Assembly (NCBI GenBank): GCA_016194985.1
Contig: JACQAK010000013.1
Coordinates: forward strand, 101,999 to 165,998
Origin: Bacteroidota bacterium
GTDB lineage: Bacteria > Bacteroidota > Bacteroidia > B-17B0 > Aurantibacillaceae
Reading direction: 5' to 3'
DNA length: 64,000 bases
Shown here: in pieces, positions 34,719 to 61,162 of the stretch
How the letters are laid out: each line of letters begins with the position of its first letter
Position numbering within the stretch: the stretch's first letter is position 1
Notes under the pieces: model-generated
Database searches by the model: none
What the model saw: the letters and a program-made list of their open reading frames with translations, nothing else
What the model was told of the DNA's origin: nothing
Made by a program: the position numbers and the translations under genes

Positions 34719-34799
34719 TACAGTAAAGTTACACAAAAAACAGAAACGGATCTGTTACAAATTTTTAGAACATTTTATAGTAGATTAATGTAAATTTCA

Positions 34800-35023
34800 T
34801 TTGGGCATTTCCGCCAGCTGGCGGACCGGGCTGTCGCTTCAATCTTTTGTTCGTGCCTCACAAAAGGATTTTCGCTTGCATCCCTAATGCAAGTAACCGT
34901 TCTTTCGAAGTTTTGGTGCGTAAGGGATTGAGGCTTTGTCTGAGCTCTTTTTATTTGCGCTGAAAGCCAAATAAAAAAGCGAGTGCCGAAAGCCCGGCCC
35001 GCCAGCTGGCGGATACGCCCAAA
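34800..35023. mobile_element. MITE-like element with terminal inverted repeats
   Basis: The ends read TTTGGGCATTTCCGCCAGCT (from 34800) and, on the other strand, TTTGGGCGTATCCGCCAGCT (from 35023). They match over about 35 bases, each containing the palindrome CCGCCAGCTGGCGG. The 224-bp element has no reading frame. Its right half (about 34918-35023) recurs inverted at 60249-60349. It fills most of the 377-base gap between the transporter and the enoyl-CoA hydratase gene. Confidence 0.65.
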
Positions 35024-35082
35024 TATTTAAAATAAAAATTAAACCCAACCTACATTTTCTAATACCATGTATCCGGAAATAA

Positions 35083-58157: not shown

Positions 58158-60197
58158 ATGAAAAAACTCATTACTCTTATCTTTATATGTTTAGTAACTA
58201 TTGGCTCTGGCCAGGTAAGCAAGTATTTGAGAAAAGGTTCCAAAGCACTTGAAAAAAACAAACTGGAATCTGCCAGAATCAATTATCAAAAAGCATACGA
58301 CCTTGATAAAACAGCTTACGAAACAAATGCCAGTATGGGTTATTTACTGGCAGAGTTTTATTACAAATATGAAGAAGCCTTACCGTATTTAGAAATTGCC
58401 TATAGCAAAACACCCACGGATACCGTTGCCGATTTGCTGGGTGCACTGGCAAAATGCTATCAATACGTGGGGGAATTTAAAAAAGCATATTCCCTGTTTG
58501 ATAATTTAATTGTAAGAGCCACATTGGATAAAGAACAAGACAAAGCCTACATCATTGATTTGAAAAAGCGCAAAGAAGATTGCTTGTTTGCGGAAAAAAA
58601 CAAAGAGTTAGTTTATGATAAAAATATTTACGTTGGAAACGTAGGTCCAAAAGTAAATACTGATATGCCGGAATATGTACCTGTCATTACCCCAAATAAC
58701 GAATTACTATTTACATCTCGCAGAAAAGATTTCGAGAAAGAAAAAACAAGTAAAATAGATGACAAGTATTTCGAAAATATTTACATCAGTAAAATAGATA
58801 ACAACGGTAAACCACAAACCGCCAAAGTATATACCATACCAAAAGAAATTTTAAAAACAAATCCAAGGAAAAGTCATTTATCCATCATTTCAGCTTCTAC
58901 AGACGGCAATACCATGTTTGTGTTTCAGAAAAATAAAATCCACGAAATTAAAACAGAGGGCAATACAAAAACAGTAAAAGCTTTATCTAAAAATGTGAAT
59001 ATCGATTTTTATCAAAACCATGCCACTATCAGCAAGGATGGGAATACGCTTTTATTTACAAGTGAAGATGACAGAGGAAAAGGTGGGCTTGATATTTATA
59101 AATCTGTAAAAGGCAGTGATGGTGAATGGGGTGTTCCTGAAAATCTAGGATCCACAATAAATACAGAATACGACGAAGATTCTCCTTACTTATCTGATGA
59201 CGGAAAAACATTATACTTTTCATCAAAAGGACACGAAGGCTTTGGAAATTATGATATTTATAAAAGCACATACAGTAATGGTTCTTGGTCTCAACCACAA
59301 AATTTAGCACACCCTATTAACTCTCCGGGCAATGATATTTTTATGATCGAATCCGATCATTTCAATAACGGATATTTATCATCTCACCGACAAGGCGGCA
59401 AAGGTGATATGGATATATACAAAATTACGTATCTCGATAAATTCAAAAAAGAATGTTCGGAGAAAAAAAGTGCTTTGGTTTCTATTAATTCCAAAATAAC
59501 CGATAAAGAAACATTTGCTGTTAATTTCGAAAGTTCTATTCCTTCCAACTTAAACGTGATTGCTTATCAATGGACCTTTAATCAAACCAAATTACCAAAT
59601 GACGCTTCTCAAATTACTCATACCATCTCTTTAACGTCTCCCGGTGATTCTGTATTTGTAAAAGTGATCGCCGGTTGTGATACCTGTATCGAACCTGTTG
59701 TGCTTTGTAACAATCTTATTTACAAAGTACCTGCAGATATGATTGCGGTTACACCCGTTGAAGAAGCTGGTAAAAATCCTTACGATGATAAATTGATTTT
59801 ACCATATTTAAATAAATCAAAACTGGATGCTTTAGGATTAAATATGACGCCTATTTATTTTAATTTGAATAAATCCAACATCAGAGAAGATGCTGTTGCT
59901 ATTTTGAAAAATAACATTGATATATTATCCAAACATCCTGAATTATCCATATTAATCTATGGTTTTGCGGATAGCAGAGGCTCGGAAGCCTATAACCTGC
60001 CTTTATCTAAAAAACGTGCGCAGCATGTGAAAGAGTATTTGGTATCTAAAGGATTGAAAGTAAAACAAATTGAACAAGTGTCTGGCAAAGGCGAAGCTTT
60101 TATTTTAAACAAATGCACAGAGGGTGTAAGTTGTGAAGATGCTGAACATGAAGTAAACCGTAGAGTAGAGTTTATTATTTTTGAAAATAAAAAATAA
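58158..60197 (+). CDS. PorE-like OmpA-family protein (TPR, beta-propeller, PKD-like, OmpA)
   Basis: The 679-residue protein has a signal peptide (about 1-18, ending GSGQ), TPR repeats (about 22-135) and a WD40-like PD40 propeller (about 165-425: PVITPNNELLFTSRRK, ISKDGNTLLFTSEDDRGKGG, LSDDGKTLYFSSKGHEGFGN, GGKGDMDIY). A PKD-like domain (about 440-535) and a C-terminal OmpA domain (about 565-679: IYFNLNKSNIRED, GFADSRGSEAYNLPLSKKRA, EVNRRVEF), which binds peptidoglycan, follow. PorE of the T9SS has the same order but with a carboxypeptidase-regulatory-like domain where this one has the PKD-like part, so it may be a paralog. It has its own 97-base upstream gap. Confidence 0.88.
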   Translation: MKKLITLIFICLVTIGSGQVSKYLRKGSKALEKNKLESARINYQKAYDLDKTAYETNASMGYLLAEFYYKYEEALPYLEIAYSKTPTDTVADLLGALAKCYQYVGEFKKAYSLFDNLIVRATLDKEQDKAYIIDLKKRKEDCLFAEKNKELVYDKNIYVGNVGPKVNTDMPEYVPVITPNNELLFTSRRKDFEKEKTSKIDDKYFENIYISKIDNNGKPQTAKVYTIPKEILKTNPRKSHLSIISASTDGNTMFVFQKNKIHEIKTEGNTKTVKALSKNVNIDFYQNHATISKDGNTLLFTSEDDRGKGGLDIYKSVKGSDGEWGVPENLGSTINTEYDEDSPYLSDDGKTLYFSSKGHEGFGNYDIYKSTYSNGSWSQPQNLAHPINSPGNDIFMIESDHFNNGYLSSHRQGGKGDMDIYKITYLDKFKKECSEKKSALVSINSKITDKETFAVNFESSIPSNLNVIAYQWTFNQTKLPNDASQITHTISLTSPGDSVFVKVIAGCDTCIEPVVLCNNLIYKVPADMIAVTPVEEAGKNPYDDKLILPYLNKSKLDALGLNMTPIYFNLNKSNIREDAVAILKNNIDILSKHPELSILIYGFADSRGSEAYNLPLSKKRAQHVKEYLVSKGLKVKQIEQVSGKGEAFILNKCTEGVSCEDAEHEVNRRVEFIIFENKK

Positions 60198-60248
60198 CTC
60201 ATTTTATGAGAATAATGTAAACTTGTTTTAATCGTTTTTTATTATTTT

Positions 60249-60349
60249 TTTGGGCGTATCCCTTCGGGTCGGGCTTTCGGCACTCGCTTTTTCATTTGTC
60301 CTTCGGAGCAAATAAAAAGAGCTCAAGCAAAGCCTCAATCCCTTACGCA
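60249..60349. repeat. Half copy of the MITE-like element
   Basis: It starts TTTGGGCGTATCC and continues TCGGGCTTTCGGCACTCGCT, then AGAGCTC and CCTCAATCCCTTACGC. This is the inverted equivalent of 34918-35023 with the internal palindrome replaced by CCTTCGGG. Only one terminal repeat is present. It occupies the gap between convergent genes ending at 60197 and 60383. Confidence 0.7.
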
Positions 60350-60382
60350 AATTTTACAATAATATTAAACTAATAAAATCAT

Positions 60383-61162
60383 TTATTTAAACCCTTCAAA
60401 GGCACCCAATCCAAACAAAGAAAAATCGTATTTAATAGGATCTTTTTTATCGAAGCTTCTTAATACAGAGGTAATTTCTTCTACTGCCTGCCAGTCGTTT
60501 TGAGTGCGCTGTAATAAGCCCAGTTTCCGACTTACATTTCCGGTATGCAAATCTAAAGGCAGGCACAATTGATGAGGTTTTATATTGTTCCAGATTCCGA
60601 AATCAACACCGTGTTTATCTTTCCGAACCATCCATCTCAAAAACATGCAAAGCCGTTTGGCGCTTGATTTTGCTGCCGGATTAGAGATATGCTTTTCACT
60701 TCTGGTTTGATGTGCCGTTTTTAAAAACAGTGTTCTAAAATTAGTAATAGCATCTTTGACATCTGTTTCGTTTCCCGAAAGCTTATCAGAAAATGCGGCT
60801 TCCAAACCTCCTTGCTTGAGATAAATATACTTCAAAGAGTTCAAAAAGAAAATGCAATCCGTGGCATTGAATGTACGGTGAACAAAGTCTTCAAAGCGAA
60901 CCGCATCCTTTTTCGTAAAATTCAAAATAAAATCGTGCGGTTCATTATTCATTAACCTCATCCATTTATGGCCGTTGTTGATAATAGAAGTCCGTTGGCC
61001 CCATGCAATAGTTGCCACCAACAATGCAGCAATTTCTATATCTTCTTTTTTGGTAAATTGATGCGGAATGGAAATAGGGTCTGTTTCTATAAAGGCGGAA
61101 TTATTGAAGCGGAGATATTTTTCATCCAGGAGTTCTTTTACTTCTGCAAAATGTGACGCCAT
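60383..61162 (-). CDS. TIGR02757 family protein
   Basis: The 259-residue protein matches TIGR02757 (DUF2400): IEIAALLVATIAWGQRTSII, then AAKSSAKRLCMFLRWMVRKD, DFGIWNNIKPHQLCLPLDLH, and ISRKLGLLQRTQNDW-type and PIKYDFSLFGLGAFEG segments. The family resembles helix-hairpin-helix DNA glycosylases in overall fold (from memory), but the activity is not established. Its start overlaps the stop of the MFS transporter gene by one base. Confidence 0.88.
   Translation of the reverse strand: MASHFAEVKELLDEKYLRFNNSAFIETDPISIPHQFTKKEDIEIAALLVATIAWGQRTSIINNGHKWMRLMNNEPHDFILNFTKKDAVRFEDFVHRTFNATDCIFFLNSLKYIYLKQGGLEAAFSDKLSGNETDVKDAITNFRTLFLKTAHQTRSEKHISNPAAKSSAKRLCMFLRWMVRKDKHGVDFGIWNNIKPHQLCLPLDLHTGNVSRKLGLLQRTQNDWQAVEEITSVLRSFDKKDPIKYDFSLFGLGAFEGFK

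Follow-up and report, generated by a model that had tools for sequence, protein, structure and literature searches.

A gene-less inverted-repeat element in a Bacteroidota genome that probably carries paired Flavo-1 repeats preserved as DNA

Positions 34800-35023 of the window, the 64,000-nucleotide stretch of DNA analysed here, hold a sequence with inverted ends and zero ORFs of at least 80 aa, in agreement with a sequence-only reading that had called it a gene-less, MITE-like element with a fold under selection as DNA or as RNA. What kind of element is it, and at which level is its fold preserved? We consider it likely, at a probability of about 0.7, that this is a copy of a ~300-bp MITE, the interior of which consists of paired, older DNA-level Flavo-1 repeats, and that it is not mainly an RNA gene. 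The host is represented by a 4.2-Mb draft genome of 236 contigs (94% complete).

The inverted ends are real, and they are not the ends of the element. Two 38-nt arms (34799-34836 and 34987-35024) are 89% complementary, lie 150 nt apart, contain inner palindromes and both include CCGCCAGCTGGCGG. The folding energy of the element is -114.6 kcal/mol, compared with -69.3 +/- 4.4 for shuffles (z = -10.2). TTTGGGC, where target duplications were looked for and none were found, is not the terminus; the element continues for another 30-50 bp outward. Positions 34800-35023 are only the core of a ~300-bp MITE spanning about 34771-35071, bounds taken from an alignment to copies in which target duplications mark the ends. 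The core contains two folded units of ~92-107 bp each, arranged tail to tail; half of the window element is the natural repeat unit, which occurs singly or as a tail-to-tail pair. Unit A matches the unit covariance model (R1) with 106.7 bits (E 1.2e-20). The features are as follows.

34771..35071, no strand: whole MITE, approximate bounds, comprising the outer terminal inverted repeats (TIRs) and ~10 nt beyond
34781..34798, plus strand: left outer TIR core TAGATTAATGTAAATTTC, family consensus TAGAATAATGTAGGTTTATTTTA
34801..34892, plus strand: unit A, a Flavo-1 unit with P1 (GC-N3/N3-GC), P2 hairpin, P3 (GGG/CCC) and P4 hairpin
34810..34825, no strand: perfect palindrome TCCGCCAGCTGGCGGA at the P2 tip of unit A, found again at 34998-35013 with 1 mismatch
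34893..34915, no strand: spacer separating both unit tails
34916..35022, minus strand: unit B, inverted, with variant P4 GGCACTCGCTTTTTTATTTG...CAAATAAAAAGAGCTC (R1 match, E 1.6e-7)
35049..35061, minus strand: right outer TIR core, reading TAGAAAATGTAGG on the minus strand
60207..60232, plus strand: left outer TIR of the second copy, TGAGAATAATGTAAACTTGTTTTAAT
60250..60350, plus strand: single unit B of the second copy, tip CCCTTCGGG, without unit A and right TIR

The division into units is visible in the genome search with the element, which returned 72 pieces in two classes, covering query positions 1 to ~100 and ~118-224; each half of the element is one unit copy. The unit reads 5' TTTGGGCGTG-[P2 hairpin]-YCGGGCTNTC-CGCT-N-CAATC-[P4 hairpin]-GGATTTCCGCT-N-CAATCCCTCACGC 3' and forms four helices: P1 (GC-N3/N3-GC), P2, P3 (GGG-C-T-N/N-A-T-CCC) and P4. 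A covariance model built from 26 units finds 131 units in the window's genome. Neighbors closer than 300 bp exist for 64 of the 128 placed units, and their order is (+,-) in 32 pairs, tandem in 0 and (-,+) in 1, the last lying between two pairs. With three exceptions, pair spacers measure 40-49 nt, or 22-23 nt in the window's subfamily, in which spacers range over 22-28 nt in all; inverted pairs with a mostly fixed spacer are a property of REP/REPIN sequences. The elements are intergenic (overlap with a long ORF in 1 of 57) and enriched in gaps between convergent genes (18 of 57 elements, against 37 of 294 gaps in relatives, p = 0.001), with gene context taken from a simple ORF picker.

The partial copy reported near 60249 is confirmed, down to the exchange of its hairpin tip. 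A copy of the right half of the element lies at 60250-60350 on the opposite strand, with 83-86% identity (query 118-224/248), between the convergent ORFs 58158-60197(+) and 60383-61162(-), and CTTCGG stands where the window element has CCAGCTGG. This copy retains its own outer inverted repeat from about 60198. Both copies bear diverged forms of the ends of the MITE subfamily.

We note a separate behavior of the 16-bp palindrome TCCGCCAGCTGGCGGA. It forms the P2 tip, yet in several copies it replaces parts of other stems, at the P4 arm or the P3/P4 junction; it was seen at 34810-34825 of the window, at 1563-1578 of locus L012, in L028 and in L225 (contig C79). It behaves as if it were a small inserting palindrome in its own right.

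The term MITE-like holds for the subfamily that shares the outer repeats: it has TIRs, target duplications, many dispersed copies, empty sites in relatives and no transposase gene. Upstream of GGGC, AATAATGTAGGTTTATTTT is common to many copies, and the 23-bp outer TIR TAGAATAATGTAGGTTTATTTTA has 40 matches in the genome, compared with 0 for a control. These TIRs pair convergently at distances of 75-368 bp. TIR-bounded elements that bear units are 249-368 bp long, and short forms of 75-120 bp consist of the outer parts without units; the latter look like internal deletions between P2 hairpins. Exact 7-9-bp direct repeats are located 10 nt outside the TIRs in 8 of 17 elements, and 0 of 2000 shuffles were as good (p<1/2000). 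These AT-rich duplications (TTAAGAA, AATTTAAA, TTAAAATA, TTTAAAA, TTTAATTA, ATTCTAAAA, TTTCATA and TAAAATAA) are therefore transposition scars, and they suggest a DDE-type transposase. The sequence-only reading had proposed a search for target duplications; the search succeeded for the subfamily but not for the window copy, whose own duplication is not recognizable. Pairs without this TIR have zero detectable target duplication, and for that reason the case for their mobility consists of presence and absence.

Presence and absence were compared in two congeners (G003 and G004), which have zero units in 793 kb. At ten inserts, including the 60249 copy, the congeners show a short ordinary gap between matched flanks, in intergenic DNA too diverged for the exact empty target to be read. 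At the site of the 60249 copy, the flanks are 42 bp apart in the congener and 189 bp apart in the window. Around 34800, gene order is not conserved in relatives, so the site has no empty counterpart for comparison.

An insertion sequence (IS) with matching ends, which the sequence-only reading had also suggested looking for, did not turn up: no parental IS with GGGATTGTTGTAGAATAATGTAGG-like ends was found in the window's assembly, and the searched GTDB genomes have no exact match to the TIR. The outer TIR is essentially confined to the window's species, and a search of plasmids and phages for the element gave zero matches. Multi-copy IS are often missing from metagenome-assembled genomes (MAGs). 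The gene between distant units in contig C78 was considered as an element gene and rejected, as it is a RidA-like host gene. In genome G016, two contigs (C39 and C47; loci L052 and L034) begin with ~130 bp of identical sequence leading into unit B and a MITE-like TIR. These starts are probably one terminus of a larger element of multiple copies, which may be an autonomous relative; its interior is absent from the G016 assembly. The elements resemble bacterial MITEs in lacking a gene and in having TIRs, target duplications, intergenic spread and internal deletion forms (75-120 bp); they differ in their interior, a pair of copies of a folded repeat that is independent and deeply conserved, and in that the parental IS was not found.

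That repeat is already in Rfam, a point missed by the sequence-only reading. By comparison with the Rfam model, the unit is RF01705 (Flavo-1) on the opposite strand, extended by two helices. With relaxed Rfam thresholds, unit A matches RF01705 with 40.1 bits (E 5.4e-7; gathering score 42), and unit B and the 60249 copy score 17.9 and 19.2 bits. Because unit A misses the gathering score by 2 bits, a scan of the whole window at that cut-off gave no match; of 12 test loci in other genomes, 10 exceed it, and homologous units reach 44-61 bits. Flavo-1 was proposed by comparative prediction and judged "probably" an RNA and not cis-regulatory (Weinberg et al. 2010, PMC2864571), and another paper lists it with the abundant sRNA families of bacteria (PMC9029176). 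In the literature searched, we found no paper calling Flavo-1 a repeat or mobile. A sequence search detects units in 18 of the 41 near genomes, and the covariance model detects them in at least 45 of 297 across the phylum. Among the matches listed in a pattern scan are Flavobacterium, Chryseobacterium, Polaribacter, Cellulophaga, Pedobacter, Ferruginibacter and others, together with repeated occurrences in spirochaete MAGs, which the isolate names place in the termite gut. Several of these spirochaete MAGs (JAISQU, JAISQV, JAISAF, JAISXE and JAIRXO; L314-L338 and others) contain multiple units of the same architecture, with a GC-rich P1.

The Rfam family raises the first alternative, namely that Flavo-1 is a small non-coding RNA and that the paired copies are duplicated RNA genes. 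Strong covariation would be expected of such genes and is found; alignment of the copies shows that the stems are preserved with different loops and do not vary at random. Among 112 copies (alignment A3), 24 of 27 pairs have double changes, amounting to 459 cells compared with at most 60 in slid controls, and the covariation score is 0.401, compared with at most 0.084 when slid. The 97 copies from named records (A5) give 342 double-change cells (at most 94 when slid) and a score of 0.308 (at most 0.072). P1 alone occurs in eight fully matched combinations, including GCGTG/CACGC, GCGTT/AACGC, GCATA/TATGC, GCGAG/CTCGC, GCTTG/CAAGC and GCGCG/CGCGC.

The mismatches tell the two levels apart. In RNA stems, G-U pairs survive and A-C pairs do not, and reading the other strand swaps the two. 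The A-type units have 22 GT and 25 AC among 2415 stem cells, and the units of the named records have 30 and 32 among 2420. The acceptor and T stems of tRNAs at the same loci, a small control of 17 tRNAs, have 18 GT and 0 AC among 204 cells (Fisher p = 3e-5 against the units). The units thus lack the one-stranded tolerance of G-U that marks pairing at the RNA level. Since GT and AC are equally rare, neither strand's RNA is what is kept, and together with the double changes this indicates that base pairing is preserved as DNA. The earlier choice between DNA and RNA is thereby narrowed to DNA.

Other observations also weigh against an RNA gene, in spite of the curated family and its listing as an abundant sRNA. 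There are ~130 copies in the genome and ten empty sites in congeners, and the Rfam model omits P1 and P2, both of which covary. In F. psychrophilum, Flavo-1 matches are placed "indistinctly" in the sense or antisense direction relative to transcripts, and transcription is lacking for many of them (PMC9723704). One trend runs the other way and counts against our DNA-level reading: over the phylum, units that lie between genes of one direction tend weakly to follow those genes (43:24, p = 0.027, the uncorrected outcome of one among three such tests), and they do so on the strand opposite to that of the Rfam model. Taken together, we regard the small-RNA explanation as very unlikely. The data point to a DNA repeat, some of it mobile and some of it in pairs, in contrast to the description of Flavo-1 as an sRNA.

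Covariation shows that the fold is kept, but selection is not the sole way to keep it. During replication, template switching (quasipalindrome correction) could rewrite one arm from the other and generate double changes without selection on the fold. This would fit the large excess of double changes over one-sided ones (459 cells and about 50), the lack of accumulating G-T and A-C intermediates, and tips that change wholesale while the arms stay perfect. Alone, it does not explain the unpaired or mismatched letters that are near-invariant across Bacteroidota and spirochaetes (C.GGG-C-T, AATC, TTCCGCT-N-C and TCCCT). We consider template switching a possible but doubtful explanation on its own. 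The invariant letters, as sequence features, speak for a recognized site, and what keeps the stems may be either selection for a hairpin that binds a protein or copying through template switches. In the unit consensus (A1 and A5), P4 is flanked on both sides by TTCCGCT-N-CAATC in direct orientation, and the resulting internal loop has two-fold symmetry. From its sequence symmetry, this loop could be a dimer site.

Hairpins conserved as DNA are also known from REP, BIME and REPIN sequences, and the units might be sequences of this type belonging to a RAYT transposase. Flavo-1 units are likewise extragenic, high in copy number, present as singles and as inverted pairs of fixed spacing, and without target duplication outside the MITE subfamily, in agreement with the published description of subclass 2.6 (PMC6006769). 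REP sequences are 20-40 bp long, whereas the units are ~95 bp with four helices and no associated RAYT. A RAYT profile gave 0 hits in the window's genome, and Pfam Y1_Tnp found no RAYT there and one subclass 1.2-like gene (L031 1492-1938, contig C57 of G000) with the motif YIKNQEQHH. Subclass 1.2 is reported to be without REPs. G007, a unit-rich genome that is 99% complete, lacks both Y1_Tnp and RAYT, and no RAYT was found within the 1.01 Mb surrounding 173 units. A RAYT gene flanked by the repeat, as in REP/REPIN systems, was not observed; among the checked Y1/RAYT genes of relatives, none is flanked by units except one class 1 gene. A RAYT origin of the units therefore seems unlikely.

In genome G038, the sole detected unit lies ~190 bp from the sole Y1_Tnp gene (L083 1408-1854 and 2035-2149). 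The far side of the gene has no unit, and no other genome showed this arrangement. This single case is about the chance rate, and a RAYT or other Y1 transposase was rejected as a unit neighbor. An IS200/IS605-derived element, which would have subterminal hairpins beside a Y1 transposase and no target duplication, was also rejected, as the MITE subfamily has target duplications and the one Y1 neighbor of a unit, in G038, is chance-like.

Our preferred reading remains a MITE with a DNA-level interior. The element would be a non-autonomous DNA transposon of ~300 bp that moved by its outer repeats, which a DDE-type transposase, since lost or not assembled, may have recognized in trans. Its interior would consist of a folded repeat of ~95 bp, Flavo-1, that is older than the MITE and independent of it, in two copies joined tail to tail; this repeat exists as singles and REPIN-like pairs in Bacteroidota and some spirochaetes. 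Anatomy, covariation and scars are demonstrated, and we infer the partner proteins and the function: the unit may fold into a hairpin where DNA is single-stranded, by extrusion or at a replication fork, and this hairpin may be the site of a spreading protein, or its arms may be rewritten by template switching. Unit orientation has no replication strand bias (12 of 20 in G254 and 11 of 19 in G159, 23 of 39 in total), which counts against our reading, as an element of lagging-strand single-stranded DNA might show one. For the family as a whole, we propose more tentatively, at somewhat less than even odds, that Flavo-1 is a mobile structured DNA repeat of Bacteroidota and spirochaetes, with a four-helix single-strand hairpin recognized by a non-RAYT protein and with spread as REPIN-like pairs and as MITE cargo.

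On these results, what has been taken for an abundant Bacteroidota small RNA may instead be a DNA repeat. If so, Bacteroidota genomes carry a misleading sRNA annotation, and attention should shift to finding a partner that binds or processes DNA. Checking whether G-T and A-C pairs are equally rare offers a simple and general way to tell DNA-level from RNA-level covariation, and it can be used on other "orphan RNA" motifs.
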